This document shows positions 756 through 54,493 of a DNA stretch of 64,000 bases, piece after piece. The translations under genes and the position numbers were made by a program. How positions within the stretch are numbered: position 1 is the stretch's first letter; every line of letters begins with the position of its first letter. This DNA is from Russula earlei (taxonomy: Eukaryota > Basidiomycota > Agaricomycetes > Russulales > Russulaceae). Below the pieces are notes generated by a model, which ran no database searches, was not told the origin of the DNA, and worked only from the letters and a program-made list of their open reading frames with translations. Location of the stretch: positions 1 through 64,000 of the forward strand of contig JAGFNK010000019.1 in assembly GCA_025769875.1 (NCBI GenBank). Direction: 5' to 3'.

Positions 756-802
756 CTTGAGCGTTGGCTGGTCAATACAGGGATGATGAGAGACTGTCCA
801 GA

Positions 803-1576
803 TGTCAAGACACGTACTGCTGATCACTAAGGACTCAGGAGCAGGTGGGCAAGGGTCGGAACAGATGGTACGCGGCGAAGGCGGCGTTGAACAGGAGGAC
901 GAGCCAAACGACGAGGAGGTACCAGATGGGGACTGGTAGGTGTTGCAAGAGACAAAGGCGAAGGCTAGATGCCAGTGTAGCGAGGGGCTTTAAACAAGGC
1001 GGTCGTTGAAGAGTACCTTGAAGACGAGGGAAGGCTTTAGACTGAGCAGTCGCAGGGGAGTACCCAGGAAGTGGAGAGTATCACAAATGGACAGTCTGAC
1101 GACTGCCATGCTTCATTGGGGCTTATATACAGTATACAGGGTCGATTACAAAGCACTGGGACTATTCTAGACTCTTTGGTACCATCCAATAGGACGATCA
1201 TTGTGGAGCGATGACATCATTATGATGTCACTGTGGAGCGCTTAGTGAGCCTATGAGGTCACTGTGGAGTCGCTCAGTCAGCCGTGATGTCATTGGAGCC
1301 TTGATGACGTCAGATGATTTATGCAACAGTTTCTAAGAGTTTGTGCCGCTGTTTCGGGTCCATGGTGGCTGAGTGGCCATGTGGCTGCCACGCGATGATT
1401 ACCCGATTAGGAAACTGGTGCCTGGTCGTGTTATAGTGCCTTTGCAATAGCGATATCTTGTACCGCAGGGGGAATAGCCCAGGAAATGGAAGGGAGTCGG
1501 CAATGCAAAGTGAGAGAGGTTCTTCTTGAGTAAAACAGGACAATCTTCAGCCAGGACTTGGCCTTGGTTCGTAACA
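803..1576 (-). repeat. LTR of family A, copy F
   Basis: The LTR runs, on the minus strand, from TGTTACGAACC at 1576 to CTTGACA at 803, about 774 bp. It is slightly shorter than the 824-830 bp LTRs of the complete copy. It keeps the splice donor GTACGT near its 3' end (812-817), preceded by A, as in the complete element. Confidence 0.88.
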
Positions 1577-9695: not shown

Positions 9696-10101
9696 CACGA
9701 CGGGCAGGAAGGGATAAGTCGACTCCGCTTATAGTCAACTCAGTGGATAATAAAAGTAAAATATTTCAAGTGCTGAGTAGGCTCTGTTGCGGCCACAAAT
9801 TATATTACATAAGTAATGACCTTAGTTGATCACGAAAAATGTGACAAAAAAGGTTAAATATGGAGAGTCTACTCATTCCGGCACAACTTTTACCCTAGCC
9901 TGGGTAAAAGTTGTGCCGGAATGAGTAGACTCTCCATATTTAACCTTTTTTGTCACATTCTTTGTGATCAACTAAGGTCATTACTTATGTAATATAATTT
10001 GTGGCCGCAACAGAGCCTACTCAGCACTTGAAATATTTTACTTTTATTATCCACTGAGTTGACTATAAGCGGAGTCGACTTATCCCTTCCTGCCCGTCGT
10101 G
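9696..10101. mobile_element. Foldback element: 200-bp arms, almost perfect palindrome
   Basis: Bases 9696-9895 are the reverse complement of 9902-10101 with about two mismatches (in the GATCACGAAAAATG segment), around a 6-base centre (TAGCCT). CTA flanks both sides directly (9693-9695 and 10102-10104), a possible 3-bp target duplication. There is no coding capacity. The arm ends (CACGACGGGCAGG and the TCAACTCAGTGG region) resemble sequence near 4420-4475, so this is a repeat family. A foldback MITE is the best reading; an inverted duplication of one terminal repeat is the alternative. Confidence 0.75.
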
Positions 10102-24912: not shown

Positions 24913-25806
24913 TGTCATGAACCATTCTCCAGAGAGGACCCTTGAAGGACCCTTCCTTATAGGAGGAAACCCAGCCTCTATGGTGTCACCCTGTTCACAC
25001 GAGCAAAAGGGGTGAGTAGAGGTGTCCACAATATTGCGCGTGCATTGTCATGCGAGCGATTCTCGGCACAATCGACATATTTAGGACAACTCTAGGTGCT
25101 CTACAATAGGTACTAACCTAGTATCAAAGACTCTACAATGCGTTATTAGACCAACTCTAATAAGTATAGAATGAAATATAAGGCAATACTAAGGACCTTA
25201 ATAGAAGTATTAGGGTCGACTCTAAGGACCCTAATAGAGCTATATAAGGGCCTTATAAGATAACACTATTCCCTAACCAAACTACAAGTCCTCAAATGAC
25301 CGGCCCTAAACTAACTAACAGAAAATGAATCAGGTGCTCACATGTGCACTAGAACAGCAAACACATGGACAATGAAAGCTCTTACTCATCAGGAAAAGCC
25401 TTCTTACTCAGCAGCTTACTGAGCATGACTGAGCATGCTCAGTAAGCGCACTCTGACTTCTTACTCAGCACTCTATTGTGCTTGATAACAAGGTTATGAC
25501 TTGTTCCATATTCAGCAGTTCTCTTGTAGTATATAAGTGCTCAATAAAGTAGAGGACAGTCCTCAGACTGTCCATTTGTTTACGGCACTCTCCACCCCTG
25601 GGATACTCCTTTAAGAACCATCCCCTTGTGACTATCCTGGCCTCCTCTCTGCATGACTGCTCGACTCTCACAGTAACAGTACCTCTCTGGTATTTGTTAC
25701 TACTCTGGACTCTACTTCTCGCCCATGCCGTCTTAGACGTCTATCGACTTGTCTTTGAGCTAACTCCTCGCTCTTGAACTGGATAGTTCAACAGTGAGTC
25801 TTGACA
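24913..25806 (+). repeat. 5' LTR of D
   Basis: 894 bp from TGTCATGAACC to GTCTTGACA. It contains a TATA box and predicted RNA start (25530-25574). A splice donor GTGAGT (25794) lies 13 bases before its end. Confidence 0.93.
25530..25574 (+). promoter_or_regulatory. D promoter: TATA box and predicted RNA 5' end
   Basis: TATATAA lies at 25530-25536. About 29 bases on, AGACTGTCCA (25565-25574) is the exact complement of the primer binding site, which places the RNA 5' end there. An 8-bp inverted repeat (GGACAGTC, CTCA, GACTGTCC; 25554-25573) straddles this point. Confidence 0.65.
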
Positions 25807-26700
25807 TCTGGACAGTCTCTCACAACCTGCACTGACCAGTCGACTCATCAAGTGTCTGACAATATCCCGACCACTGGTTCTCCGGAGCCTCACACTCCCA
25901 ACATCCAACTACTTTCCCTTCCCCAATCTCTCCCACTGGTTCCGACTCTATCTCTGCCACCTGGGCTTCCCCCCATTGCAGTTCATCCCCTTCCAGGGAC
26001 TTACATAGAGGACTACCCTCCCGATGATCAAGAAAACATTCCCCTGGTCCCACAAGGCTTCTTTAATCCTCTGGACTGCATGGAGTATGCCTTCCACCCC
26101 CACCAGTTTCAAGTTTATCACGTCCGACAGAACGAAGTAGAACACTGGCGCCCTTTGGAAGAGGCAGGATGATGCGACGCCCTTTCCACCATCCCTACTA
26201 TAGGTCACTTGCTCCAGCGACCATCCACCGACATCTTTGTTTCCCAAATCCAGGCCAAAACCGCCCACACTTTTGCGGTACTGCCTACCAACCACGACCT
26301 CGTCAAGCAATTTAACTCAGCAAGCTTCGAGGTGTGTAGTTCTGTAGGGATACACCCTCCGGACATAGACTTCCCCTTTGGTCACCTCCACTATTTGTTT
26401 AATTCATCGATATATCATCATCTAGAGACACTGCCCCCCATTTATTGATTCACGTACCAAGGGTCTTTTATCCTCACTTCTATCCATGACTTCCTTGACG
26501 GCAGAGTTTATTGTTCCTATGCTTACCTAAAGATAGCCGAGGGAGGATATATATCGTTTGAGAACAGCTTCTCAAACTCCTTAGACAACCTCCGTCTTTA
26601 CCCTGCCTTGTCTCGCTTTTGTTTCCTCCCCCATCTCCCTCTGAACCCTCTGCTTACTTTGGACCCTCTTCACCCAAGTGTTATCAACATAGCTACCTAG
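25793..26700 (+). pseudogene. D accessory gene ORFx; start codon made by splicing
   Basis: Predicted exons are a leader ending at A25793 and 25853-26700; the intron 25794-25852 (59 bp) has donor GTGAGT, branch CTGAC and acceptor CATCAAG. Joining gives ATG-TCT-GAC-AAT, and the frame runs 282 codons with TGA stops at 26170 and 26446. No ATG lies near the 5' end of this frame. The protein aligns with ORFx of family A throughout: a Pro-rich N terminus, then FHPHQ, THTFAV, DFPFGHLHYLFN, IHDFLDGR. No known fold or family is recognised. It is called a pseudogene only because of the two TGA codons. Confidence 0.7.
25809..25818 (+). promoter_or_regulatory. Self-primer binding site of D
   Basis: TGGACAGTCT begins two bases after the LTR and is complementary over 10 bases to 25565-25574. 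This is the arrangement used by Tf1/sushi elements, where the RNA 5' end primes its own reverse transcription. It lies inside the predicted leader intron 25794-25852. Confidence 0.7.
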
Positions 26701-26715
26701 TGCATAGTTCTTGAA

Positions 26716-27752
26716 AGTAAGAACTACCCTTGTAACACTAGACCAAAGAAATCAAAGCTTTTTCTGCAGTGCCTCCAAGATTCACAGTTTCCCCCAACCC
26801 AAGCACCGACTCGGAGTACGACTCAGAGGACGACGCAATTCTCCATCAGCATGAGCTCATCGCTAACCACCTTCCCATCCTTCGGGACATTTACTTTCCC
26901 CTGATCTCCATCGTCAACATCTACGACCGGCAACAAAATGAGATCTGGTCTCACAACGCCTACGTCCTCCGAGACTTAGTAGGCCTCCTCCCATTCGGAC
27001 AAATCCTCAACCAAGTACAATACGACTTGTTTGTTGACACTCTTAGTCACCTTGTTGAACCCGCTCACCACCAACTCTTGTTTTGGTACCTCTCCAACTC
27101 TAGAAACTTCGACGGAGAGCCAACTGGTATCCTCACCCTCACAGACAGCGACGAAAAGCTGTGGACTGAAGTTATCCTGCCTCAGCATTACACTCTCGTC
27201 CAAGAACTATTGGAGGGTCAAGCCTCGTATTATCTATCCCTCTTCACTCTCACACATGAGCACATCTCGGTGCAGTATAATTACCTCCGCCTTAACAGAT
27301 CCATGCAAGGAGGACCCGCAACCCTCCAGTTGGCTTATGTAGAAGGCAGAAGGTACATTTACAACTGGAGAGAAGCTACCTGGACCCATGGCATCATTGA
27401 CGCCCCCCAGAACCTCGTGGACCCCGCGGGGCTTTATTCTCTGCCACCAGCAGTTTACACTGGTCCCCCTGTCCCCAAAGAACTCTCCACCATCAGCCGA
27501 CCTCTCACCCCTGTAGTGAGACGAACCCCGACCAGCAGCATCCACACTCATTGGTCTCCTACACCAACTCGCCCCGGCGCCTGCCTCTGCCTCAGAGAAG
27601 TGTGCAACTGCGGCTTCCGACCCGACACGCCCCCCACGCCACCAGGAATAACCCTGTGGACCCCGGGAGATAGACACCTCCCACATCAACCACTCTGGTG
27701 CCCTCTCACAGATGAAGAGGCCGCCACTCTGCTTCTGCAGTTTCAAGAGTAG
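26716..27752 (+). CDS. D accessory gene ORFy; start codon made by splicing
   Basis: Predicted exons end at A26716 and restart at 26770; intron 26717-26769 (53 bp) has donor GTAAGAAC and acceptor TTTTTCTGCAG. Joining gives ATG-CCT-CCA-AGA and an intact 327-residue frame. Without splicing the frame has no ATG until its middle. Visible parts are an acidic N terminus, a middle region with LVGLLPFGQIL and NYLRLNRS, a Pro-rich stretch and a CxCx4CxC cysteine motif (CLCLREVCNC) near residue 276. Family A has the same motif (CNCKTEYCTC). There is no signal peptide or membrane segment, so it does not look like an envelope protein. Function unknown. Confidence 0.72.
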
Positions 27753-28243: not shown

Positions 28244-28619
28244 AATCCCAAAGGCCACTTACACAGAAGTAGTGAAAGGCGAAGACCTTTACAAACCACA
28301 TGACCACGGAAAGCACATCTTTCACCTCACTAAAGAAGACCAACACCTTTTCGAACTATCATTTTATTGCAAGGATCCCTACTGCTACTGGCACAAAGAT
28401 TGGTATTACACCCGTGTCTGGCACAAGTCTTGGGACCCATAGCCTACCATTCGGCCAGCAACATACGCAGAGGTTGTAAAGGGGGAGAACCTTTACAAAC
28501 CTATACACTTCATCGGGCGTATCTATTATCGTACCCCAGAAGAACACCGCCACTCTCAAGAGCATCCCTACTTCTGTAAGGACCCATATTGTCCATGGCA
28601 CCAAGGTTGGCATCGTTAG
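28212..28619 (+). pseudogene. D-specific gene with two copies of a Cys/His module
   Basis: The frame starts with ATG at 28212 and holds two similar modules in the same frame, separated by a TAG at 28440. Each contains ATY-x-EVVKGE-x-LYKP, then YFCKDPYCPWHQGWH or FYCKDPYCYWHKDWY. The C-x4-C-x2-H spacing suggests metal binding. The modules are about 55 residues each (about 28255-28412 and 28455-28616) and arose by tandem duplication. Family A has no counterpart at this place. Function unknown. Confidence 0.6.
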
Positions 28620-28622
28620 TGA

Positions 28623-30215: not shown

Positions 30216-33200
30216 GACACTCTGAACAAGGAGGAACCCCTTGTCGACCAACACATTCATAATGCCTTCCAACACCACCCATTACGAATCCAGGCAAAGA
30301 GTACAACATATACCAAGTTGGCAAAGGACAATCAGCCAACACAGCCCCTCGAGAAACTAATCCCGACTGACTTTAAGATCTGGCAAAATGTATTTGACGA
30401 ACAAGCCTCCCAACGTCTCCCTGCTCATGCACCATGGGATCACGCCATCAACCTCAAACCAGAAGCCTCGCGTAGGGACTGTGGCATCTATAGGCTCACT
30501 CCAAAGGAATTAGTGGCCTTGAAGGAGTATCTAGATGAACACCTCAAACGGGGGACTATCCGCCCTTCCAAAGCACCAATAGCTAGCCCATTCTTCTTTG
30601 TAGAAAAGAAAGGAGGTACCCTTCGCCCAGTACAAGACTATCGAGGACTTAACGCCACTACTATCAAAGATGCCTACCCCCTACCATTAATCCCAGACCT
30701 TATTGACAAATTACAAGGGGCACAATACTTCACAAAGTTCGACGTATGATGGGGATATAACAACATCCACCTTCGAGAAGGTGATGAACACCTTGCAGCC
30801 TTTAAGACACCCTTAGGCCTCTTCAAACCACTTATCATGACCTTCAGCCTTTGTAATGCACCAGCCATGTTCCAACGATTCATGAACAATATCTTAGCAC
30901 CACTGATCACAACAGGACACGTTGTGGTATATCTAGACGATATACTAATCCTTGCAAACACCATTCATGACTTAGATCAATGGACACATAAAGTCCTTAA
31001 AATCCTACAAGAACATGACTTATACCTAAAGCCAGAAAAGTGCGCTTTCCGTCAAACGTCCATCAGCTATCTAGGCATACACATTTCACAAGGACGCATA
31101 TCAATGGACTTGGATAAACTCATAGGCATCACACAATGGCCAACTCCTAGTAATATCACCGAAGTTCAAGCCTTCTTAGGCTTTTGTAACTTCTACAGAC
31201 GTTTCATACACCAATATTCCCATCTGGCCTGACCATTGTTCAACCTAACCAAGAAGGACCACCCATTTCATTGGGGGTCCGAGGAGGAAAAAGCCTTCCA
31301 CATCCTTATCGAAGCATTTATGAAAGCACCTGTCTTAGCGCTCCCTGACCATTCACGACCATTCCGCTTGATCTGCGATGCAAGCAACTTTGCAGTCGGC
31401 TCCATTTTAGAACAACCGGATGAACTAAACCAGTACCACCCAGTGGCGTACTTCTCCAAATCATTAGACCCTGCTCAGAGAAACTATATGATCTATGACA
31501 AAGAGCTTCTGGCTATAGTTTCCTTTGCTTTGGCATTTCCGACATTACTTAGAAGGTGCTAAACACCCCATAGAGTTGTGGACAGACCACAACAACCTCA
31601 CATACTTCATGACGAAGCAGAAACTCACTTGATGACAAGCTTGGTGGGCTTTGCTGCTTAGCACATTCAATTTCCACATTATACACCACCCAGGAACCCA
31701 GAACAAAGCTGACGGTCTGTCCAGGCAGCCAGACTATAAAGAGGGGATGCATGAAAATGATGCAAAGGTCCTGCTGGACCAACAATTTTTTAAAATTAGA
31801 GCAACCTGATCATCCACAACGGAACCCATAGGAGACTTTGAACTAAGAAAACAACTACGTACCAGCAAAGACTATGACCCAGAGGTCAAAGGGGCCTTAG
31901 AAACCATCCTGAAGAATGGCCCCCATCACCTTACAAAAGGCTTGCAGGACTGGAACTTAGAAGATGGACTGATTCTCTTCAAAGGAAAAGTCTATGTCCC
32001 AAGATCGGACGCACTAAGGTGTACAGTCCTCAAAGTACACCATGGCTCCTTAGCCACTGGCCACCCGGGTCAATGGAAGACCTACAAACTAATAAGCCAT
32101 AACTATTGGTTGCCAGGAATGCTAACATTTGTCAAGAGCTATGTAGATGGTTGTGCTATATGTCAAAGCACAAAGAATCGCCCAACAACGACCGTACCCC
32201 TAGTCCCTATCACCCCTGTGGGCAAGATCTGGGACAGTATCACCATGGACTTCATTGTCAATCTACCCCTTTCTCAAGGGTATGACAGCCTACTAGTAGT
32301 GGTGGACCGCTTCAGCAAAGCTGCCATCATCTCCCTGTGTCACAAGACCATCAATGCAGAAGATACTGCCTCTCTAATCATGAACAATGTGTGGAGACGA
32401 GTAGGGTTGCCAACTCAAATCATCTCCGACCGAGGTCCCCAGTTCGCAGCCAAAGTTACCCAAGAACTATGGAGGAAACTAAATGTTAAGTCCTCCCTTA
32501 GCACGGCATACCACCCCCAATCAGATGGGGAAACAGAAAGAGTCAACCAGGAACTAGAACAGTATTTGAGGATCTTCTGTAACCACCAACAGGATAACTG
32601 GGTTGAACTAGTCCCATTCATGGAGTTTGCTCATAATGCACGCACCCATAGCGCAACCCACAAAGCCCCCTTTGAAATATGGTACGGCTTCAATCCAGAG
32701 TTTGCCCCCCCTTTTAGTTTCAATACCAAGTTCCCTTCCGTCCTGGAACGTCTGCAACAGCTAGATCTACTTAGAGAGGAGGTCGCAGCCTCCCTCCGGA
32801 ATGCCACAGCACTGATGGGACAGCCCAGCTCCCACTTCCCCAAGTACCAGTTTAAGACAGGAGACTTAGTCTGGCTAGAAGCCACTAATCTGAGGACAAC
32901 ACACCCAAAAGCCAAGATAGCCCCTCGACAATATGGACCCTTCAAGGTTGTCACCTCATACCCAGTCAACGTACACCTAGAACTACCAAAGACATGGAAG
33001 ATACACCCAGTCTTTCATAACTCCCTGATCAAACCATACAAAGAGACCACTGCCCATGGTCCTAACTTCAAACAACCCCCCCCTACTATAGTGGAAGGGG
33101 AGGAACAGTATGAAGTGGACAAAGTCCTAGCATCCAGACATTCCCCTAACCGTAGAGGCATTCAATACCTAGTACAATGGAAAGGGTACCCCACAGCAGA

Positions 33201-33321
33201 GAACACTTGGGAGCCCGCGTCCAACCTGATCAAAGCCAGAGAGGCTGTAAAGGCCTTTCACCAACAATACCCAACAATGCCCAAGCCTAATAACATAGTT
33301 GCAGGAGCAACTAAGTCATAA
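30216..33321 (+). pseudogene. D pol without protease: RT, RNase H, integrase, chromodomain
   Basis: RT starts near 30318 ([18 protein letters not shown]; active site VVYLDDILIL near 30931), followed by RNase H (LICDASNFAVGSIL near 31370) and integrase (H2C2 part near 32050-32170; SITMDFIVNLP, SDRGPQFAAK, SDGETERVNQ for D, D, E). The chromodomain is YLVQWKGYPTAENTWE near 33165. A 459-residue integrase frame (31942-33321) is intact. Stops at 30213, 30747, 31230, about 31630 and 31807 are all TGA, and there is a frameshift near 31530. Family A has about 0.7 kb of protease between the knuckle and AALIF; here CREPSFKH joins directly to VAALIF, so protease was deleted. Confidence 0.9.
31736..31748 (+). 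promoter_or_regulatory. Internal (central) polypurine tract of D
   Basis: ATAAAGAGGGGAT is identical over 13 bases to the 3' polypurine tract at 33318-33330. It lies between RNase H and integrase. It also encodes Lys-Glu-Gly, so a coding explanation is possible. Confidence 0.5.
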
Positions 33322-33333
33322 AGAGGGGATGAA
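33318..33333 (+). promoter_or_regulatory. 3' polypurine tract of D
   Basis: ATAAAGAGGGGATGAA abuts the 3' LTR (33334) and would prime plus-strand DNA. It overlaps the pol stop TAA. Confidence 0.8.
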
Positions 33334-34228
33334 TGTCATGAACCATTCTCTGGAGAGGACCCTTGAAGGACCCTTCCTTATAGGAGGAAACCCAGCCTCT
33401 ATGGTGTCACCCTGTTCACACGAGCAAAAGGGGTGAGTAGAGGTGTCCACAATAACGCGTGTGCATTGTCGCGCAAGCGATTCTCGGCACAATCGACATA
33501 CTTTAGGACAACTCTAGGTGCTCTACAATAGGTACTAACCTAGTATCAAAGACTCTACAATGCGTTATTAGACCAACTCTAATAACTATAGAATGAACTA
33601 TAAGGCAATACTAAGGACCTTAATAGAAGTATTAGGGTCAACTCTAAGGACCCTAATAGAGCTATATAAGGGCCTTATAAGATAACACTATTCCCTAACC
33701 AAACTACAAGTCTTCAAATGACTGGCCCTAAACTAACTAACAGAAAATGAATCAGGTGCTCACATGTGCACTAGAACAGCAAACACATGGACAATGAAAG
33801 CTCTTACTCATCAGGAAAAGCCTTCTTACTCAGCAGCTTACTGAGCATGACTGAGCATGCTCAGTAAGCGCACTCTGACTTCTTACTCAGCACTCTATTG
33901 TGCTTGATAACAAGGTTATGACTTGTTCCATATTCAGCAGTTCTCTTGTAGTATATAAGTGCTCAATAAAGTAGCAGACAGTCCTCAGACTGTCCATTTG
34001 TTTATGGCACTCTCCACCCCTAGGATACTCCTTTAAAGACTGTCCCCTTGTGACTATCCTGGCCTCCTCTCTGTGTGACTGCTCGACTCTCACAGTAACA
34101 GTACCTCTCTGGTATTTGTTACTACTCTGGACTCTACTTCTTGCCCACGCTGTCTTAGATGTCTATCGACTTGTCTTCAAGCTAACTCCTCGCTCTTGAA
34201 CTGGATAGTTCAACAGTGAGTCTTGACA
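33334..34228 (+). repeat. 3' LTR of D
   Basis: 895 bp, the same ends as the 5' LTR, followed directly by the TTATT duplication. The TATA box is at 33952-33958. Confidence 0.93.
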
Positions 34229-41592: not shown

Positions 41593-42416
41593 TGTTACAA
41601 ACCAAGGCCAGGTCCTGGCCGTAGATTGTCCTATTTCACTCAAGAGAAACCTCTCTCACTTTGCATTGCCAACTCCCTTCCATTTTCTGGGCTATCCCTC
41701 CTGCGGTACAAGATATCACTATTGCAAAGGCACTATAACACGACCAGGCACCCATTTCCTAATCGGGTAATCATCGCGTGGCAGCCACATGGCCACCCAG
41801 CCACCAAGGACCTGAAACAGTGGCACAAACTCTTAGAAACTGTTGCATAAATCATCTGACATCATCAAGGCTCCAATGACATCATGGCTGACTGAGCGAC
41901 TCCACAGTGACCTCATAGGCTCACTAAGCGCTCCACAGTGACATCATAATGATGTCATCGCTCCACAATGATCAGTAATGTGCTCAGTAAGCCTGAAACT
42001 TGACACAAGCAAGTTTATGCCTCTGTAGTCCTATTGGATGGTACCAAAGGGTCTAGAATAGTCCCAGTTCTTTGTAATCGACCCTGTACACTGTACATAA
42101 GCCCCAATGAAGCATGGCAGTCATCAGACTGTCCATTTGTGATACTCTCATCTTCCTGGGTACTCCCCTGCGACCGCTTAAAGATTCCCCTCACCTCCAA
42201 GGTACTCTTCAACGACCGCCTTGTTTAAAGCCCCCTCGCTACACTGGCCTCTAGCCTTCGCCTCTGTCTCTTGCAACACCTACCAGTCCCCATCTGGTAC
42301 CTCCTCGTCGTTTGGCTCGTCCTCCTGTTCAACGCCACTTACGCTGTGTATCATCTGTTCCAACCCTTGCCCACCTGCTCCTGAGTCCTTAGTGATCAGC
42401 AGTACGTGTCTTGACA
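41593..42416 (+). repeat. 5' LTR of A
   Basis: Runs from TGTTACAAACC to CTTGACA. The TATA box has decayed to TACATAA. AGACTGTCCA at 42126-42135 marks the predicted RNA start, and the splice donor GTACGT begins at 42402, 15 bases before the LTR end. Confidence 0.92.
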
Positions 42417-43386
42417 TCTGGACAGTCTCTCATCATCCCTGTATTGACCAGCCAATGCTCAAGTGTCCACTCCTAACTCCACCACTTTGGTTAACACCTC
42501 CTTGCGCCTCCCTTCTCCTCTGCAACCTACCCCACGCACTGCCCTTTGCATCCTCACTGAAGACATCGACCCGGTCGACACATCCTCGCCCCTCAGCATC
42601 TTTTACTCCCCAACAGCCCCACCATCGTCTCCTACCATCGCCCAGCCTATTCCAGGTGACTTTGTCCCTATTGGCACTCCCCCTCCAGCACAGAACGAGC
42701 AACAGCAAGTGGACCGACCTCCCTTGCCTGAAGGCTTCCTTGATCGCCCTCCTTGCACAGCATTCCGGTTCCACCCCCATCAGTACTTTGTCCTTCCCAC
42801 CACCAATCATTCCCATGAGCAGTGGCGTCCCCTCCACGACTTAAACCACCAAGACTACCTGGGACGCATCCCTACCTCAGAACAGTTGAGTCGTCGCGCC
42901 TTCACAGACACCTACACAACTGCATTTCATGCACGCATCGTCCACACTTTTGCTGTGGAACCCTCCAATGCTGCCCTTGCCACCGAGTACAATTTAACCC
43001 CCTTCGGCATCTGTTCCAACGTCAGGATATATGCCCCAGATGCTGACTTCCCCCTTGGACGTATCGCTTACATTTTTAATACGTCGTTGTTTAGGAAGCT
43101 CCTTACCTTACCTGCCATTTACCGTCCTGCTTACGAAGGGTCCTTCTGCCTATCTATTGTACACGATTTCCTGGATGGACGCCTAGCTTTTGCGTATGGT
43201 TACTTACACTTTGAAGAGAACAGTAACTGTGTCTCCTTGCATCACTACTCGACTTATACCGTCGACACCATCCATTTCAACCCCCAGTTACTTCGCTTCT
43301 GTTTCACGCCTCGTATCCCTCCTAACCCTCTCGAAATAATCGAGAGGTACCATCTCGAAACCATAGATCTTGCGCACGGTTCTTAA
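42401..43386 (+). CDS. A accessory gene ORFx; start codon made by splicing
   Basis: Predicted exons end at A42401 (inside the LTR) and restart at 42464; intron 42402-42463 (62 bp) has donor GTACGT, branch TTGAC and acceptor CTCAAG. The join gives ATG-TCC-ACT-CCT and an intact frame of 307 residues. That frame contains no other Met, so an ATG must come from outside the exon. Order of parts: Pro-rich N terminus, ILTEDIDPVD, FRFHPHQYF, VHTFAVEPSN, DFPLGRIAYIFNTS, IVHDFLDGR. It is homologous to ORFx of D. No signal peptide, membrane segment or known family is seen. Confidence 0.75.
42419..42428 (+). promoter_or_regulatory. Self-primer binding site of A
   Basis: TGGACAGTCT begins two bases after the LTR and is complementary over 10 bases to 42126-42135 in the same LTR, as in Tf1-type self-priming. 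It lies inside the predicted leader intron 42402-42463. Confidence 0.7.
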
Positions 43387-43711
43387 AAAGTAAGAACCAT
43401 CCTTGTAACGCTTCAATAAAGATCGAATAAACCTTTCTTCTTTGCCTTAACTAAAGTGCCTCGAGAATACACCTTAGAAGAAGACGAAGAAGAAGATGCT
43501 ATCACCAGACACGTCTTGAGCCTAAATCATTATCGAACTTGGGCCTCCACCGCATTCCCTGTCACCACCTTAACCAACCTACATGACGTACCAGGGATAG
43601 AACCACCCCACGAAGACTTTCCTCATCTCATTGTCAAAGAATTCCTTGAAGTCTTACCATTTGGACAACTCCTAAGCCACGACAAACACACATTATATCT
43701 TGAAACCCTTA

Positions 43712-43871
43712 GGCCCCATACAGCAACCAAGATTTCTTGAAACTTGAACTTGGAACTTGAATTTTGGGATTAGCCGGGAGTGACAGGTGTGACAGGTGTG
43801 ATGACAGTGACATGTCATATGATTAACTAATATCAGTTGTTTTTGTCTGTTAACTGTAATTCACATATTTG
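43712..43871. repeat. Left 160-bp inverted repeat of Harbinger
   Basis: Starts GGCCCCATACAG and is repeated inverted at 46780-46939. It contains the sub-repeat GACAGGTGTGACAGGTGTGA and a short palindrome around ACATGTCATATGA. Confidence 0.92.
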
Positions 43872-43979
43872 TTGTTGTAATGACTGATGCAGCCCAAAAA
43901 CTTTTTATGCCCCTCCGAGTCATGGCCAATTTTTTACCCCCCGATTTCAAGTTGTCACTGTCCGTCCCTGGTCAATGCT

Positions 43980-45328
43980 ATGGCTGATTACCTTGATCAG
44001 GAGAGGCTGTATCTGCAGCAGGTACAACGGCGATGCCAACAACTTCTAATGATTTTATATTTTACAGGTTATGCCCTTTATGGCTTCCAGGCCATACTGT
44101 CAATACTTAAACCCCGTTCTCCTCCTATTCCATATCACACCTCCGCCCTCACTGGTCTTGCCTGGGTCCATGAACTACTCACCGGCCACCCAGAACGCAT
44201 CCGGAATGAACTTGGGGTCCATAAACATGTGTTTCACAAGCTCCAGCAGACTCTCCACAACTTTGGTGTTGTGTCATCTCGGCATGTCCGAATTGAAGAA
44301 CAGGTTGCCATATTTCTCTATGCCGCTTCCACCGGGCTGTCAACAACAAATATTGGAGAGCGTTTTCAGCGGTCACCAAGCACGGTCTCAAAGTACGTAT
44401 CCCATGGTTTCCTTCTATATATCTTCTGATGGATATCCAGATATTTTAAAAAGATACTTGGAGTTCTCACAACCCCCCCTTTCTACACCACCTTTGTACA
44501 GCTTCCTGATGCCAATTCCCCTCCTCACTCCTTTATCCAAGGGAATCCCAAATTTTTTCCCTTTTTCAAGGATGCCCTGGGTGCTATCAACGGCACCCAC
44601 ATCAGTTGTTACTCCACTGCCGCAGAGCGCGATGCAACAAGAGACCGCAATGGCGTTCTCTCACAGAACTGCCTTGCTGCTTGTTCATTTGACCTCCGCT
44701 TTACATATCTTTTGACTGGTTGGGAGGGCTCCACCGCCAACTCAACTCTTTTCCACGATGCCCATCATTCCGATTTCCCCATCCCAAGAGGGAAATACTA
44801 TCTCGCTGATGCAGGCTTTGCCTCATCAAACACACTGCTTGTTCCTTATCGAGGTGTACAATATCATCTATCTGAGTGGGGTCATGCTGGCATACGGTGC
44901 ATTCTCTCTTTCTTTCCCATCTTCTCACTAATTTTTACGCTTGTCCTAGGCCACGCACACCCCAGGAATTATTCAATCTGCGCCATGCTCAAGCTCGCAA
45001 CGTCATAGAGTGTATGTTTGGGATTCTCAAGCAGCGTTTCAAAATCCTTCGGTACCCCCCTGAGTATAACATGGACATTCAAGCGCACATCCCATCAGCA
45101 CTTGCAGCCCTTCACAATTTTATTCGCCATTATGATCACAGTGAGATTGATGTATTTGATGACAGGGTAGACCCTCAGATGGGTCATTGTGAAGCGGCTG
45201 GTGAACTGGGAAGAGGGGTAGTGACGCGCTATGAGAGGGAGCAAGCAAATATCAGGCGAGACAGGATTGCAGGTGAGATGTGGGAGCAGTATCAGAAAAC
45301 ACTTGAGGATCGTGCAGCAGGTATTTAG
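43980..45328 (+). CDS. PIF-Harbinger DDE transposase, two catalytic Asp changed
   Basis: Exons 43980-44392, 44441-44896 and 44950-45328 (introns 48 and 53 bp, GT-AG) keep frame and give 415 residues. The N-terminal helical part ends in FQRSPSTVSKYFKKIL. The nuclease part has GAINGTHI, where the family has GAIDGTHI, then GWEGSTANSTLF, where Asp is expected at the second Asn, then RNVIECMFGILKQRF with the Glu kept. Both changes are GAC to AAC. The frame is otherwise intact, but the enzyme is probably inactive. The fold would be RNase H-like; the partner is the Myb-like protein next door. Confidence 0.88.
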
Positions 45329-45437
45329 TTCAGACACATGTCCACATGTTTTCAGAAAATGAAAGAACACTTCATGGCATTCAACAAATTATGATACATG
45401 CATGTGATGGGTGACTACTGTAGAAGTACAACTACAG

Positions 45438-46771
45438 TCAGGACGTCCTGGCCTTCTCCAACAGATCCTTGATGTAGTTGCGTGCAATCTCGCGCGACAA
45501 CACTGACCCATTAGTCATAAGCACAATATAACTGTCTATGTGCACGATGTCACAAGATCCCAAGATATTGATCACAGGGACAACATCATCCATGGAGAGC
45601 CATTCACCATTCAGTTCAATATCCTGGGTAAGATGTTGAATTGCCAGTGACCGACGGGTGGTCTCGGGAAGTGCCGAGATAGTTATGATGTCATTTGAAG
45701 GCGGCATATGCATGGCCGGAGGTGGGGCTGGGGCTGGGTTTGAGGGGAGTGCCAGCGGCATTGGGAGTGGGGGGAGTGCCAGCGACATTGGGGGTGGGGA
45801 CGAAGCAATGAATGCATGCATGGTTGAGTTGAAGTTATCGGCAAACCTCTCCATGGTTGACTGCATGCCGTGGACAGCAACTGCCGTGGAATCAGACTTG
45901 AGTTTTTTGGTAAATGAGGAAGATGTTTCGGAGGCGACATCCTTGACCTGAGATACTTTGCGTTTGGAATGAAGGACACTGGATGAGGAGGAAGAGCGAT
46001 CTGGCGCCAGAGATGACAAGGAGTCCCCACTTTGACATTCAAACAAATTGGGATTGGGGGACAGCAATGCAGATGACTGAGGGGGAGTAAAATGGGCTGT
46101 TGACTGCGTGCCCCGATATGAATGGTGGCCTCTTGCACTTGATGGCATCAGAGATTTCATGATGCTGCGATGCGGCCAGCCTTTATCCCTGTACTTCTTG
46201 TATTCTTGATTTTTCTACTAATGATCAGATGGCATTGACAAATTAGATGTTATGTACGCACCTTGACTAGATCACTCCACACCGATTCCATTTCAGGTGG
46301 AACAACAATTCCATTCTCATCGGTCCATAGGTGCCCAACCCTGGACTCATTCCTGAGAGCAGCGATTAGCAAGTACTCCTTCTTCATCTAGTAGTAGACG
46401 ATGTTAGCTGCGTGATATGGCAAAGCAAAAAAATTTCGTACCCTTTGCCATTTTGATTTGCACATAGGTCCAGTCTTGATAGGACCCTTCTCATGCATGG
46501 GCTTAATAGAATTGGCTGCTTGGTTGAAGGTAAGGTCCTTGAACATGGCGTTGGAGGTCATGTTTCCTTCTTGTTTCCGCTCGACAAGGAACAGTAGAAA
46601 TGCAGCTTCCTCTTCAGTTGTCCATATAGCCTTGTTACTTTCTGAAATTAGACTTCCTTCCATGGAATCTGGACTTATTGATGAGTGGGTCTGCATCATA
46701 TGGGGTGGTGGAGGTGGGGGTAGAAAGATTGACGCGCCAATCGTTCCCGAGCCCAAGTCATTACACGACAT
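45438..46771 (-). CDS. Harbinger second gene: Myb/SANT-like DNA-binding protein
   Basis: Exons 46442-46771, 46262-46387 and 45438-46196 (introns 54 and 65 bp) keep frame and give 404 residues. The N-terminal Myb/SANT-like domain contains KAIWTTEEEAAFLLFLVE and CKSKWQR; the middle has WTDENGIVVPPEMESVW, common in fungal transposon-linked Myb proteins. The C-terminal half is Ser/Pro-rich with a predicted helical end. In known Harbinger elements this protein brings the transposase to the nucleus and ends. The ATG at 46771 is taken as start; the GTG just before it is not. No stop was seen. Confidence 0.82.
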
Positions 46772-46779
46772 CACATATG

Positions 46780-46939
46780 CAAATATGTGAATTATAGTTA
46801 ACAGACAAAAACAACTGATATTAGTTAATCATATGACATGTCACTGTCATCACACCTGTCACACCTGTCACTCCCGGCTAATCCCGAAATTCAAGTTCCA
46901 AGTTCAAGTTTCAAGAAATCTCGGTTGCTGTATGGGGCC
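46780..46939. repeat. Right 160-bp inverted repeat of Harbinger
   Basis: Reverse complement of 43712-43871 with about three differences. It abuts the TTA duplication at 46940. Confidence 0.92.
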
Positions 46940-47600
46940 TTAGTTGACTCCTGCCACCAGCACGACAACAACTATTATATTGGCAACTTGCTCAAGCAAA
47001 GAACATCCAAGGACAACCAGTTGATTATCAATCCCTGCACTCCAGCAAATTGAACCTTTGGACCAGGATCATCCAGCCATGTCACCATCTCATTGTTAAC
47101 TCTTTAAGGACAGGGTATCGCCTGTTTTACCTGGCTTGGACATACATCAGCTACTATCGTCTCACTGTCCAGTTCTATCACCTACGCCTCAACAGAATAC
47201 AAAGGGAAAATCAATCTTACATCCAACTTGCTGTTGTACCAGGAATACACAACACCTTTGACTGGGAAACTAACTCTTGGCTATACGATGCAGACTACAA
47301 TCAACCTTGGGCAATTACCAGCCCAGACGCCTCATATACTGGTCCCCCTGCATACTATTCTGTCCCAGCAATCCTAGAAGCCTCGAGTCTTGCCCCTCAA
47401 CCCCTCACACCGATTCAAACCACTGTCCCAACTAGCCAAGAACGTTGGTCTGCCAGCACAGAAGATACTGAGTCAAATCCGTGGACAGCAAGGTGTAACT
47501 GCAAAACAGAGTATTGCACGTGCAACTTCTGACCAGATACACCTCCTACTCCTGACGGAATCACCTTGTGGACGCCAGGCGATTACCACCTCCCCATTAG

Positions 47601-48188
47601 ATAAATCTGGCCCCTCGACACAGAAGACGCGTGTCATCCCAACGACCCCCTGAGAGAGAAACAATCCCCAACACAAGAGGATTTCTTGTCGAAAGACCAT
47701 TGCCTCCTACCCCTCCTGACGCCTACGTACCCTTGTTTACCAATCGTATTCCTACCCCTGTTGTACCTACCCAACCCTTTGCATCACCCCTTGTTGAATC
47801 CCCTGATAGTGCCGATCTTAGGAATACTGATTTACACTGCTATTTACCAGAACAATCCTTCTTAGCATTAAACCTACCTATGCGTTCAAGGAGAGAGTTA
47901 ATTGAATTCAAGAGTTATTGCACTCAAGCTTGGCATCAATGACTGACACACTTTATAGTTTACAAACACCCCACCAAGGAAATAAGTGACTTTGCCATCT
48001 CCCCAGCGGAATTCGAAGGATATCTGTGGAAGACCCGAGTAGTTCTGACACAAAGCAGCATCACTGAAGAATATTCCCAAATCCAATTAAGAAGACACCA
48101 AGGAAGACCCGATACCATTCGACTAAAACCAGCCTACACCATTGTATATCCTTGGAACAATGGCCATTGGACTATAACAGTCGTCTAG
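47601..48188 (+). pseudogene. A accessory gene ORFz
   Basis: Open from 47601 to a stop at 48188, with one TGA at 47940. It aligns with ORFz of D: VERPLPPTPP, MRSRRELIEFKSYC, FEGYLWK, YPWNNGHWT. No clear start codon is seen, and no A-plus-TG splice acceptor was found for it. It ends four bases before the gag ATG. Confidence 0.6.
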
Positions 48189-48192
48189 ACCT

Positions 48193-49701
48193 ATGAGCAC
48201 TAGGAGAGACATCACTGACGATGAAGAAAATCTAATCCCACTCCTATTTGAAGGCCTCAGTTACGACACTCAAGATCACTGTTACCGAGGGAAATTCACG
48301 GGTGTATCTATTATCAACCATGGAAATCTTTCTGACACTTGGTTATATGAAGACGACAACGATGAAGTTACCACTGAGCAACTTAAAGCAGCAGCCCCAG
48401 GAGTGGAAAACGTTCAAGAATTCAACCCCTACAATTTCACAGGTCTCTTTCTAGATAAACCAGTCAAGTGGAGTCGTTCTAGAAGATATTGGGTTTACTA
48501 CAACAACAAAGAAGTCAATTTCACAGCTAGAGCAACACAAGAAGTTACCGCTGTTCTAGGCACTGCACCAAGCATTCGAAGCGCTACTCCAGGACCCTCT
48601 ACCCGTCGAAATACTCAACAACCCACTCTGCATACAGTTAGCAGCGTACCACAAACAATTCCCCGAACACTCACTCCAACTAGAATCCAGTTACAAGGTC
48701 CAGCTCCACCAATTGTTACAGTCGCAACAACTCAGAACCCTACAATGTCAAGCAATCCACGTCTTGTCGGAACTGCACCAGAACCCTTTGATGGAAAGGC
48801 TGATAATGCAGAAGCCTTTTGGGCAGCTTTGGCCAATTATTACTACATCAATGGCGACTCCTTTACAGATGAAAGCAAGAAAGTCGCCGCTGCACTAACC
48901 CACTTTAAAGTAGGAACACCTGCCGGAGCATGGGCCAGAGAACAGACCACTAAGGCTATGGCTCGTACAATAGCAGACTATGGATCATGGGACGATTTTA
49001 AGAAAGCCTTTGCCGATCACTTTATCCCTGCAGAAGCAGAATTAGCCTCCGCTAACACCATGCACACCTATTACCAAGGGAAACTACCATTTAATGAATG
49101 GTATCAGAAATGGTCACACCACGCATCATGAGCTACCACCGACGAAAGAACAAAGATGTACGCATTCAGGAAGAACATTAACCCGGCCCTACATCAGAAA
49201 ATACTAGGGATCACGCCGACACCAACTACACTTGCAGCCCTTGTCAAAGCAGCAAGAGAATTTGACAACCTTTTCCACCTTTACAACTCCACTGCTTTTC
49301 GAGGAGGACGCTCTGTGCGTGCCCGAGGATTAAACACTCAAGGATCGGACAATCCATTGGAAATTAACTTGTACCAAGGAGAACCTAACGAACGACCCTG
49401 GGAATCTAGAAGTGAAAGAAAACACCTCACAGATGCAGAGAAAGAATTTCAATGGAAGAACAACCTCTGTTACTACTGTGGAAATAAGAACCATATGGCA
49501 AATCAATGTAGAGCAAAGAAAGCAGCCCAAGGACGTCAACGACAAGGATCTCGCCCCCAAACAGTCAGAGCTACAGCCATCCAGGATGAAAACATCGAAC
49601 CTGCACAAGAAGAACCTATTCCTGTTGCATCATTGACAACTTGGAGAGAAACACTTGCGGACTCAATCCTCCGCCCAAGATCTGCTCCTATGGATTTTTA
49701 A
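48193..49701 (+). pseudogene. A gag with zinc knuckle
   Basis: Starts at ATG 48193 (MSTRRDITDDEEN). It contains the capsid-like part (GTAPEPFDGKADNAEAFWAAL near 48769, DDFKKAFADHFIP) and a CCHC knuckle (CYYCGNKNHMANQC near 49468). A TGA at 49129 and the end at TAA 49699 interrupt it; protease follows in another frame. D has Trp and A has TGA, and the reverse, at different sites. Confidence 0.83.
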
Positions 49702-52700
49702 TTGGACCCCCCTCTGCACCGAGAAGGGACATGGTCCAAATCAGTACGATACAAAGAGAAATCAATTACCCCAAGGTTTTTACCAAGAATATTTGTTCCC
49801 CATCCATTGCCTTAAAAGTTACTCTTGTGGGGAAGACAAGCGGCAAAGAAATCGGTGCAAGAGCCCTGCTTGACAGTGGAGCAGAAGGAATGATAATCCA
49901 CGAACGATTCGCACAAAGACACCACCTGCACCTCTGAACTATGACCAAACCCTTGCCAGCACAAAATGTAGATGGAACACAAAATGCCAATGGACTAATA
50001 CACTTTAGCACCATCCAAAGACTTCGCATACAAGCGCACACAGGCGCTACTCATGATGAACAAGCAGAATTCCTTGTCACTAACATTGGAGATCACGACA
50101 TTATCTTAGGAACAGATTGGCTACGACACCACAACCCAGATATCGATTGGGCAAATGATACAATCACACTAAGGAACTGCCCACGAACCTGCCTTACCAC
50201 CCACCCAAGCATAACCATTGCATCTGCATCTGGAATGCGGAATTACCAAATACAAGCACTCACTTTCCCTGAAGAAGAAGAACCCGAGTTTGCAAACATT
50301 GCCGCACTAATCTTCCCAGATACTGAAGGGCTATTGAACCCATGTGTTGACAAACAAATCCACGATGCATTTAGACCAATAACAATCAGCATAAGAGCCA
50401 AGTCAACCACAGCTACAAGCTAGCCAATGCAGAAACACCCCCCAAGACATTAGATGAACTTATCCCTGCCCAATTCTTGAAATGGCGAAAGGTTTTCGAT
50501 GAACAAGCCTCTCAATGCCTTCCTGCTCACCATTTATGGGACCATGCAATCAACCTCAAACCAGGGGTCGCCCAATGCGATTCTGGTATCTATTGACTTA
50601 CTCCTAAAGAACTGCAAGCCCTAAAGGAATACCTCGATGAACACTTGAAAAGAGGTACTATCCGACCATCAAAGGCAGCTATTGCCAGTCCATTCTTCTT
50701 TGTAGAAAAGAAAGGAGGAAGCCTACGACCAGTACAAGACTACAGAGCCCTGAATACAGCAACTGTCAAAGATGCCTATCCACTACCTTTGATTCCTGAA
50801 CTAATTGACAAACTCCAAGGAGCCCAATACTTTACCAAGTTTGACGTATGATGGGGATACAACAATATCTGCCTAAGAGAGGGCGACAAACACCTTGCAG
50901 CATTCAAAACACCTTAAGGACTCTTCGAACCTTTGATAATGACATTTGGTCTTTGCAATGCCCCAGCCACTTTCCAACACTTTATGAACACCATCCTAGC
51001 GAAATACATTGCCACTGAACAAGTGGTCGTTTATCTAGACGATATACTAATCATGGCGCAAACCCTGAACAAACTGGATGACTGGACACACAAGGTCCTA
51101 AAGACACTCCAAGACCACGATTTGTACTTGAAACCAGAGAAGTGTGCTTTTTGACAAACCTCTATTAGTTACCTAGGCATCAATATATCCCAAGGGCGAA
51201 TATCTATGGACCGAGACAAGTTAATAGGCATTACAAAGTGGCCTACTCCAACCAATGTTATGGAAATCCAAGCATTTTTAGGATTTTGCAACTTCTATCG
51301 ACAATTTATCCACCAATACTCACAAATGGCACGACCCTTGTTTAATCTAACAAAGAAAGAACACCCCTTTAAATGGGAAGACGATGAAGAACAAGCATTT
51401 AGAAAATTAATCCAGGCATTCACAACAGCCCCAGTCCTCATGTTACCTGATCATACTAAACCCTTTCGGCTCATCTGCGATGCAAGCGACTTTGCAGTCA
51501 GCGCAATCTTGGAACAACCTGATGAATTTAACAGATATCACCCAATAGCCTATTTTTCAAAATCCTTGGACCCCGCACAAAGGAATTACATGATCTATGA
51601 TAAAGAGCTCCTGGCCATCGTCTCATCCCTCTGGCACTTCCAACACTACCTTGAAGGCGCTACACACCCGATTGCTCTATGGATGGACCACAATAATTTG
51701 ACATACTTCATGACAAAACAAAAACTCACATGACGACAAGCCCAATGGGCACTTCTTCTCAGCAATTTTGACTTCACCATCACCCATCACCCAGGAGCTA
51801 TGAACAAAGCAGATGGTCTGTCCAGGCGGCCAGACTTTAAAGAGGGGATACAAAATGAAAATGATGGAAAGGTGCTCCTAGATGACAAATATTTTAAAAT
51901 TAGAGCAACACGCACATCTGCTACAAAACCAATTGGTGACCAAGAATTTCGACAACAACTGCAATCTAGCAAAGACTATGACCCAGAAGTATCTAACGCG
52001 TTAGCAATCATTATAAAGAATGGACCAAGACAATTATCCAAAGGCTTACAAGACCGGAACCTCGAAGATGGACTAATACTATTCAAAGGAAAAGTCTACA
52101 TCCCAAACAATGACACCCTACAAAAGAAAATTCTGAAACTACATCATGACTCCCTCGCCACCAGACATCCTGGCCAATGGAAAACTTATGAACTAATCAG
52201 CCAAAACTATTGGTGGCTAGGAATGCTAACCTATGTCAAAGGTTATGTAGATGGTTGCACAATTTGCCAAAGTACAAAGAACCACCCAAAGACAGAAACA
52301 CCCCTCGTACCAATTACACCAGCTGGAGAAGTATGGAAGAGCATTACTATGGACTTTATCAAGGACCTACCGATTTCACAAGGCTTTGACAGCCTCCTAG
52401 TCGTGGTAGATCGATTCAGCAAAGCAATAATCATTACCCCCTGCCGCAAGACAATCACAGTGGATGACACAGCAACACTAATCATGAATAATGTCTGGAG
52501 GAGAGTAGGCCTCCCAACACAAATAATATCAGACAGAGGCCCTCAATTCGCAGCAAAAGTCACTCAAGAACTATGGAAGAAATTAAATGTCAAGGTATCA
52601 TTGAGCACAGCATATCACCCTCAGACAGATGGAGAAACAGAACGAGTTAACCAAGAACTAGAACAATACCTACGAATATTTTGCAACCACCAAGCGGACA

Positions 52701-53415
52701 ATTGGGCAGAACTAATTCCCTTTATGGAGTTTGCACATAATGCCAGACAACACAGTGCTACAAACAAACCCCCTTTCAAGGTCTGGTATGGCTTTAACCC
52801 AACATTTGCTCCACCCCTTGCTTTTGCATCAAAGTTCCCTTCAATCCAAGAAAGACTAACAAGACTAGACCAACTCAGAGAAGAAGTAGCTACCTCCCTG
52901 AACCGAGCAGCTGAGATCATGAAGCAATCAGGACCCCAAACCTCCACATTTCGTTTTAAAGAAGGGGATCAAGTATGGTTGGAAGCCACAAACCTACGAA
53001 CCACTCACCCAAAAGCAAAACTAGCCCCTCGACGCTATGGACCATTCAAAGTCATCACTGCCTATCCAGTAAATGTTCGCCTCGAGCTACCAAAGTCCTG
53101 GAAGATACACCCAGTCTTTCACCATTCCCTGATTAAACCTTACAAAGAAACCACTGCCCATGGTCTTAACTTCTCAAACCTGCCACCGATACTAGTTGAA
53201 GGAGAAGAACAATATGAAGTAGAACAGATCTTAAACTCTCAGCTCTCCCCAAACCGCCAAGGGATCTAATACCTAGTTAAATGGAAAGGTTATAATGCCG
53301 CAGAAAACACTTGGGAACCAGCATCTAACCTATCAAAAGCACAATTACTTGTTAAAGACTTCCATCGGAAATATCCGAAGGCGCTTAAAATGATTCCCAC
53401 CAGGAGTGACCCCTA
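49641..53415 (+). pseudogene. A pol: protease, RT, RNase H, integrase, chromodomain
   Basis: Protease (ALLDSGAEGMIIHERF near 49865; DIILGTDWLRHHNP near 50098), RT ([18 protein letters not shown] near 50695, FTKFDV followed by TGA then WGYNNI, VVYLDDILIM near 51028), RNase H (LICDASDFAVSAIL near 51474), integrase (MDFIKDLP, SDRGPQFAAK, TDGETERVNQ) and a chromodomain ([16 protein letters not shown] near 53270). Stops: TGA at 49935, 50597, 50849, 51152 and 51731; TAA at 50916 and 53267. A 489-residue integrase frame (51800-53269) is open. Confidence 0.9.
51838..51849 (+). promoter_or_regulatory. Internal (central) polypurine tract of A
   Basis: TAAAGAGGGGAT is identical to the 3' tract at 53649-53660 and sits at the same place as the internal tract of D, between RNase H and integrase. 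Confidence 0.5.
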
Positions 53416-53648
53416 AACCAACAACTCTCATCATGACGTCCGTCGACGACTATCTTTATCCTTGTTACCAACGAACTTTTCAGAGAACCCCTGCAATCAC
53501 ATGCACTCAATCAACTACAGCCATCCCCAAAGCAATCCATAGAACAAGAAAGAACTCCCCACAAACGAACAGACTTCGACTTTTCATATGCAAACTACTC
53601 CACCTTCCAAAGAAACAAGTTCCTACCGTTGCAGGAGCAACAAGTCTA

Positions 53649-53663
53649 TAAAGAGGGGATGAA
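53649..53663 (+). promoter_or_regulatory. 3' polypurine tract of A
   Basis: TAAAGAGGGGATGAA abuts the 3' LTR at 53664. Confidence 0.8.
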
Positions 53664-54493
53664 TGTTATGAACCAAGGCCAGGTCCTGGCCGTAGATTGT
53701 CCTATTTCACTCAAGAGAAACCTCTCTCACTTTGCATTGCCGACTCCCTTCCATTTTCTGGGCTATCCCTCCTGCGGTACAAGATATCACTATTGCAAAG
53801 GCACTATAACACGACCAGGCACCCGTTTCCTAATTGGGTAATCATCGCGTGGCAGCCACATGGCCACCCAGCCACCAAGGACCCGAAACAGTGGCACAAA
53901 CTCTTAGAAACTGTTGCATAAATCATCTGACATCATCAAGGCTCCAATGACATCATGGCTGACTGAGCGACTCCACAGTGACCTCATAGGCTCACTAAGC
54001 GCTCCACAGTGACATCATAATGATGTCATTGCTCCACAATGATCAGCAATGCGCTCAGTAAGCCTGAAACTTGACACAAGCAAGTTTATGCCTCTGTAGT
54101 CCTATTGGATGGTACCAAAGAGTCTAGAATAGTCCCAGTTCTTTGTAATCGACCCTGTACACTGTATATAAGCCCCAATGAAGCATGGCAGTCGTCAGAC
54201 TGTCCATTTGTGATACTCTCATCTTCCTGGGTACTCCCCTGTGACCGCTCAGTTTAAAGATTCCCCTCGCCTCCAAGGTACTCTTCAACAACCGCCTTGT
54301 TTAAAGCCCCCTCGCTACACTGGCCTCTAGCCTTCGCCTCTGTCTCTTGCAACACCTACCAGTCCCCATCTGGTACCTCCTCATCGTTTGGCTCGTCCTC
54401 CTGTTCAATGCCGCTTACGCTGCGTATCATCTGTTCCGACCCTTGCCCACCTGCTCCTGAGTCCTTAGTGATCAGCAGTACAGTGTCTTGACA
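53664..54493 (+). repeat. 3' LTR of A
   Basis: 830 bp from TGTTATGAACC to CTTGACA, TATA box TATATAA at 54165-54171. The splice donor of the 5' LTR reads GTACAG here, but this copy would not be used as donor. Followed by CGTGG, the target duplication. Confidence 0.92.

Follow-up and report, generated by a model that had tools for sequence, protein, structure and literature searches.

Start codons probably made by splicing in two families of Ty3/gypsy-type retrotransposons of Russula earlei

Between the 5' LTR and gag of two LTR retrotransposons of Russula earlei, A and D, lie two open reading frames, ORFx and ORFy, and it is not obvious how their translation could begin. Both elements are found in the window, a stretch of 64,000 nucleotides from one contig (JAGFNK010000019.1). 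An earlier note on this DNA held that neither frame has a usable genomic ATG, and a reading of A and D bears this out: no in-frame ATG lies upstream of ORFx (counted from the predicted RNA start) or of ORFy (counted from the last stop) in either element. The answer that we favor, with a probability of roughly 0.86, is that splicing makes both start codons and that splicing of the first of two introns divides messenger from genome RNA, the use of this first intron being deduced from the letters of the DNA.

In both A and D, paired LTRs (TG..CA) flank gag-pol (Table 1). Comparison with Pfam gives a domain set of Ty3/gypsy type (gag, protease, RT, RNase H, and integrase), in which integrase comes last. 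Matches are strong for RNase H in A and for integrase in both elements, and they fall below the Pfam cut-off for gag and protease (in A) and for RT (in D). The integrase contains H2C2, core, and SH3_Tf2-1-like domains. D also has a chromodomain (PF00385, E 2.7e-16); no chromodomain match was obtained in the A stretch searched, which stops at the end of that copy's frame. The two elements are probably LTR retrotransposons of Ty3/gypsy type that prime their own reverse transcription and carry two added genes before gag. Judged by the identity of their proteins (39-41% for ORFx and 37% for ORFy), they are homologous. Matches listed in the 66.6 Mb genome number at least 127 for ORFx and at least 124 for ORFy.

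The copies in the window are partly damaged: ORFx of D has TGA stops, and ORFy of A is interrupted by a DNA transposon, which carries a second ORF on the strand opposite to its transposase. Premature stops in the D-family copies of ORFy are mostly TGA, which is the outcome expected when CGA codons undergo C-to-T changes in RIP-like or methylation-driven decay. A third open frame, ORFz, follows ORFy at ~47555-48188 in A and ~27674-28243 in D. It is homologous between the two, has no ATG near its start, and lies in the -1 frame relative to ORFy; possibly it is a frameshift product. ORFz of A stops a mere few bases before the gag ATG, whereas in D a repeated module (ATYxEVVKGExLYKP..CKDPYC.WH, 28240-28620) separates ORFz from gag. 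Elsewhere in the window is a 200-nt inverted repeat (9696-10101), with arms that are 99% complementary and a 6 nt spacer.

Table 1. Positions in the window of the features of elements A, D, and F; introns, RNA ends, and primer-binding sites are predictions (a slash marks a splice site)
Feature	Position	Strand	Remarks
Element A, whole	41593-54493
5' LTR of A (TG..CA)	41593..42416	+	97% identical to 53664-54493; ends read
AGACTGTCCA in A LTR, predicted RNA 5' end	42126..42135	+	complementary to primer-binding site; TATA-like TACATAAG begins 32 nt upstream
Intron 1 of A, A/GTACGT...CAAG/TG	42402..42463	+	62 nt; would make ORFx ATG; spans LTR end and primer-binding site
Predicted primer-binding site TGGACAGTCT of A	42419..42428	+	within intron 1
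ORFx exon of A	42464..43386	+	307 codons including spliced ATG (MSTPNS..); stop TAA 43384-43386
Hairpin of A, GGTTCTT-AAAAAGT-AAGAACC	43378..43398	+	encloses intron 2 donor and part of ORFx stop codon
Intron 2 of A, A/GTAAGA...TAAAG/TG	43390..43456	+	67 nt; would make ORFy ATG
ORFy of A, first part (MPREYT..)	43457..43707	+	broken by transposon 43708-46943
Nested DNA transposon splitting ORFy of A	43708-46943		inverted ends ~175 bp; DDE_Tnp_4 transposase
ORFy of A, second part	46944..47604	+	TGA at 47530-47532 in this copy
gag start of A	48193..49131	+	ordinary genomic ATG
3' LTR of A	53664..54493	+
Element D, whole	24913-34228
5' LTR of D	24913..25806	+
AGACTGTCCA in D LTR, predicted RNA 5' end	25565..25574	+	TATA-like TATATAAG begins 35 nt upstream
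Intron 1 of D, A/GTGAGT...CAAG/TG	25794..25852	+	59 nt; would make ORFx ATG; holds predicted primer-binding site 25809-25818
ORFx exon of D (MSDNIP..)	25853..26700	+	TGA stops in this copy
Hairpin of D, AGTTCTT-GAAAGT-AAGAACT	26706..26725	+	around intron 2 donor
Intron 2 of D, A/GTAAGA...GCAG/TG	26717..26769	+	53 nt; would make ORFy ATG
ORFy exon of D (MPPRFT..)	26770..27752	+	327 codons including spliced ATG
3' LTR of D	33334..34228	+
Intron 1 of partial copy F	756..817	-	62 nt

The introns that had been proposed ahead of ORFx and ORFy are all present in the sequence of A and D, and each would bring the last letter of one exon, A, up against the TG of the next and so open the frame that follows. 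The partial copy F likewise has intron 1, with A joined to TG. At each start the genome reads GTG, and a purine is found at -3 of the junction ATG in 4/4 cases. The predicted leader of A (42126-42401) contains no ATG, and the junction ATG is the first AUG of its predicted spliced RNA; in D, two earlier ATGs (25653 and 25725) lie in the leader, neither in the ORFx frame. The complete lack of Met claimed for the ORFx frame of A holds for the copy in the window, while other A copies, for example L005, have further Met codons. Dinucleotide shuffling produced a strong in-frame donor-acceptor pair near the same place only 37 (ORFx of A), 8 (ORFy of A), 24 (ORFx of D), and 28 (ORFy of D) times, each in 20,000 shuffles. 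The earlier note had argued that four independent matches of this kind are improbable; the chance per site is indeed low, but the four cases are not independent, because A and D are homologous.

The splice sites are largely kept when more copies of either family are aligned. Counts were made with identical sequences entered once and with loci lacking the stretch dropped; the A sample consists of the best 20 of 126 other listed ORFx copies, which leans to window-like copies, plus loci from searches. For intron 1, the donor A/GT and the acceptor AG/TG are present in 16/16 and 15/16 distinct sequences of A and in 23/23 and 23/23 of D. For intron 2, donor and acceptor are each present in 20/20 intron-bearing rows of A (four intron-less rows left out), and in D the donor GT is kept in 24/28 and the acceptor in 28/28 distinct sequences, the lost donors being GT to TT changes in L018, L028, L031, and L033. 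Across the genome the start of intron 2 is matched 391 times (at most 1 mismatch) and the acceptor of A intron 1 is matched 356 times, against 0 for the same patterns reversed. The splice sites of intron 1 are scarcely more conserved than the remainder of that intron. Its donor differs in letters between the families (GTACGT in A, GTGAGT in D) and is strong in both, and a branch-like (T/C)TGAC precedes its acceptor in 15/16 A and 22/23 D sequences. No intact copy with an upstream in-frame genomic ATG, which would have spoken against starts made by splicing, was seen among the copies examined; where ORFy has a genomic ATG, that ATG is the intron-less junction itself. The arrangement does not extend to the neighboring frames. 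A splicing-made start was not found for gag, which has a genomic ATG and near which the AG/TG acceptors give no shared in-frame start (that at 48404 in A does lie in the gag frame), or for ORFz, where inspection by eye of the copies read revealed no in-frame AG/TG.

Near-direct evidence for use of the intron 2 junction comes from genomic copies in which the intron is already gone. Five copies, C465, C95, C839 (cut by a contig end), and C1152 of family A and the D-like C337 (also L084), precisely lack intron 2 and have A joined to TG. In a joined-ends search for A intron 2, which favors joined copies, 4 of 40 scored from 350 candidates were uninterrupted. At the A junction the removal is exact from GT to AG and leaves ..TTCTTAAAA(A)TGCC. 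C337 was added by a genome-wide junction pattern and shows the same exact join. That pattern gave 65 matches (reversed control 16), of which five are element junctions; 12 others, taken as loci, were rejected as having no ORFy protein match, and the remaining 48 were judged by letters alone.

How many events lie behind these copies can be approached through trees. On an ORFx tree of 25 sequences, three changes are required to explain the four A cases, a number that stays the same when the count is confined to well-supported branches, and placing them in a single clade is rejected (cost 106 log-likelihood units, p-AU 1.7e-84). By tree, then, there would be four events when C337 is included, in a reconstruction that cannot by itself separate intron gain from loss. 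C1152, C95, and C839 fall into a single supported set of five rows, the other two of which bear the intron, so that the count could drop to three if copies have recombined. Separate events are favored by the ORFy tree, in which C1152 stands beside L050, C95 beside L064, and C465 also next to a different intron-bearing copy. C95 differs from the intron-bearing L064 by 0.3-0.4% in both ORFx and ORFy. Five genomic copies, not all of one origin, record the splicing claimed for the ORFy junction exactly, as A/GT..AG/TG, and from them we infer that intron 2 is almost certainly spliced and makes the ORFy AUG. Intron-less copies are few, five found compared with 391 intron 2 starts, a scarcity suggesting that the element benefits from intron 2.

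Intron 1 is retained from donor to acceptor in 5/5 of the copies that lack intron 2, and its position offers a reason. The LTR ends inside intron 1 (at 42416 in A and 25806 in D), and the next bases are TC followed by TGGACAGTCT, which is complementary to AGACTGTCCA over 10 nt in both elements. Of the distinct sequences that the search pattern matched, 11/11 of A and 15/19 of D have both partners; in the other four D rows the LTR partner was not found. The predicted pairing is probably self-priming of the Tf1 type. Since intron 1 holds the predicted primer-binding site, an RNA from which it has been spliced should not be copyable, and a lack of intron-1-less copies is to be expected. Such copies numbered 0 among 40 scored of 1262 candidates. 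The junction pattern for A intron 1 had no exact match and 13 matches at 1-2 mismatches (reversed control 2); that for D had no exact match and 4 at 2 mismatches (reversed control 10). Five of the A near-matches were taken as loci. None of these is a junction: four have no ORFx protein match, and the fifth (C134, L083) lies upstream of an ORFx copy that keeps the intron 1 acceptor, and by its letters it resembles the LTR primer complement. The absence of intron-1-less copies among those examined agrees with the model and is not proof that intron 1 is spliced. What speaks for splicing at ORFx is the design of intron 1, which is the same as that of intron 2 and is conserved in A and D. On these grounds intron 1 is very probably spliced, making the ORFx AUG, and it is likely, with somewhat less assurance, that its splicing separates messenger from genome RNA.

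The donor of intron 2 has a further feature. In both A and D its GT lies in the loop of a hairpin, the stem of which starts with a G-C pair in A and with an A-U pair in D. The stem is matched in 7 A and 20 D rows, each compared with its own family, and is broken in the D row L024. The hairpin probably keeps splicing of intron 2 partial. Two AATAAA sequences are present inside A intron 2 (43390-43456) in 20/20 sequences, and none in 28/28 of D; with this intron retained, polyadenylation might occur early and give a messenger for ORFx alone.

Taken together, these features suggest the following course of events. Unspliced RNA would contain no start codon for either ORFx or ORFy. Removal of intron 1 would join the LTR leader to ORFx, and removal of intron 2 would join the region directly after ORFx to ORFy, each splice uniting an exon-final A with TG to give AUG. 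RNA spliced at intron 1 would serve as messenger and could not be copied into DNA; the genome would be RNA that still has intron 1. Genome RNA could be without intron 2, which would explain the intron-2-less copies. In the predicted doubly spliced RNA, the ORFy AUG lies 2 bases past the ORFx stop in A and 15 bases past it in D, and ribosomes could get to ORFy by reinitiating there or by way of an RNA in which the leader is spliced directly to it. A more general version can be put forward tentatively, at a little under even odds: the starts would be modular, such that any donor-acceptor pair, including one leading from the leader straight to ORFy, yields an AUG; intron 1 splicing would be an irreversible switch between messenger and genome; and the hairpin would tune ORFy. 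The two upstream ATGs of the D leader, as well as the loss of 4/28 D intron 2 donors and 1/16 A intron 1 acceptors, weigh against the main reading.

Both frames are genuine genes. dN/dS is 0.093 for ORFx (A copies; 25 sequences, 300 pairs), and for ORFy it is 0.09 in the first 82 codons (21 A sequences) and 0.077 in the rest (17 sequences), where the same computation gives 1.2 and 2.4 for the other two frames. These values mean that strong purifying selection acts on both proteins. No stop occurs within the match in 107 of 127 listed ORFx matches. Homologues among 5.8 billion proteins comprise two R. earlei models and five JGI/ENA proteins, the latter at 25-34% identity. The R. earlei model P0001 reads through the acceptor. 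The ORFx homologues P0003, P0004, and P0006 start with V-S and P0007 with M-S, these starts being aligned together, and the ORFy homologue P0005 starts with V-T. A V at these starts may reflect a gene finder's reading of AG/TG, an indication that is suggestive only, as these are predicted proteins and not DNA. Longer N-termini of P0003 and P0004 align upstream of the A and D starts, and the initial M of P0007 may be a genomic ATG. ORFy has a conserved CxC..CxC that adjoins a RPDTPPTPPGITLWTPGDRHLP-like region. Neither protein had a match in Pfam or a convincing one among PDB sequences, and Foldseek comparison with the PDB gave no match at E <= 0.001 for low-confidence AlphaFold models (mean pLDDT 52.5 for ORFx and 46.6 for ORFy). 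No relatives were obtained in scans of viral_contigs (with P0003, P0005, and alignments A3 and A2) or in one scan of genome_contigs (A3).

Other explanations need to be weighed against starts made by splicing. Translation might begin on unspliced RNA at the GTG, or another near-cognate codon, that spans the acceptor, the introns being there by chance. The presence of GTG at every genomic start fits this idea, as do the V residues at the predicted starts of three distant homologues of ORFx and one homologue of ORFy. However, GTG is a necessary by-product of AG/TG and a poor start codon in eukaryotes, the arrangement arises by chance in only 8-37 of 20,000 shuffles per site, and intron 2 has been removed exactly in five copies, all of which makes a GTG start quite improbable. 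It might also be argued that intron 1 is not a messenger intron, that intron 2 alone is spliced, and that ORFx is reached in another way, such as by splicing from outside the element. This would account for the failure to see an intron-1-less copy among those examined, but that absence is expected from the predicted primer-binding site. Moreover, the intron 1 donors remain strong while differing in letters between the families, and the branch-like motif is kept, so that this reading seems unlikely.

The intron-2-less copies themselves could have arisen through ordinary deletion, or could represent the ancestral form, and not be copied from spliced RNA. AAAGT occurs at both ends of A intron 2 and is a possible substrate for microhomology, the changes on the tree do not separate gain of the intron from its loss, and one five-row set takes in three of the four A copies that lack it. 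Yet deletion between the repeats would leave GTG, and all five copies have ATG, with the G gone, which argues for splicing and not repeat-mediated deletion. In addition, copies without the intron are found in both families and are not grouped as one clade; C465, C1152, and C95 stand beside different intron-bearing copies in the ORFy tree, and C95 is nearly identical to one of these. Ordinary deletion or an ancestral state is therefore very improbable. Finally, the start codons would be irrelevant if ORFx and ORFy were decayed or non-coding, as the damage in both window copies and the lack of anything convincing in the Pfam, PDB sequence, and PDB fold comparisons might suggest. Given dN/dS values of ~0.08-0.09 in A copies, the predominance of ORFx matches without an internal stop, and the existence of distant homologues from other sources, this is the sort of possibility to which we attach hardly any weight. 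Creation of the two AUGs by splicing is the reading that we retain.

Parts of this design are familiar from other retroelements. In deltaretroviruses and foamy viruses the major donor lies in the R region of the LTR, upstream of the primer-binding site, and spliced messengers consequently have no primer site. A and D would resemble them in this respect, although the lineage is different, and these viruses are tRNA primed and have start codons that are mostly genomic. Start codons produced by splicing also occur in some animal retroelements and retroviruses. In Drosophila errantiviruses, the messenger for env is spliced, and the junction may supply its start codon in some elements; this concerns one gene at the 3' end, whereas A and D have two at the 5' end. 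ORFx and ORFy precede gag, while env of endogenous retroviruses is the third ORF, after pol. Plant Ogre elements have an extra ORF before gag, and we know of no start codon made by their splicing. They are described as Ty3/gypsy elements with splicing between ORFs (PMC3735527), and are likened to A and D by that description, not by homology.

Among chromovirus-like elements of the Tf1/Tcn1 type, self-priming is described for Tf1 and proposed for Tcn1 (PMC7175516). A and D have in common with this type the integrase with H2C2, core, and SH3_Tf2-1-like domain, the chromodomain (in D), and a primer-binding site complementary to the RNA 5' end (predicted in A and D). They differ in having two added genes before gag with splicing-made start codons, 10 complementary bases and not 11, and a primer site that lies within an intron. 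BARE1/copia elements produce spliced gag RNAs by partial splicing that separates RNA roles, with messenger and genome pools that differ (PMC3735527), and in such a division of roles they resemble A and D. In BARE1, splicing creates a stop codon after gag, and DNA copies of the spliced RNA were not amplifiable (PMC3735527); by comparison, the junctions of A and D would create start codons, and intron-2-less copies exist in the genome. In the open-access literature, a scope outside which most subscription papers fall and which thereby does not establish novelty, we recognised no description of a fungal retrotransposon whose start codons are made by splicing.

A retroelement has a single transcript to share out between the roles of messenger and genome, and in A and D one splicing step appears to do this: this single step would both create a start codon and remove the primer-binding site. 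Gene finders that require a genomic ATG miss such genes or start them wrongly, as in the R. earlei model P0001. The intron-less copies, for their part, appear to be a natural record of splicing in a fungus, obtained from DNA alone, and the same fossil test can be applied to other elements.
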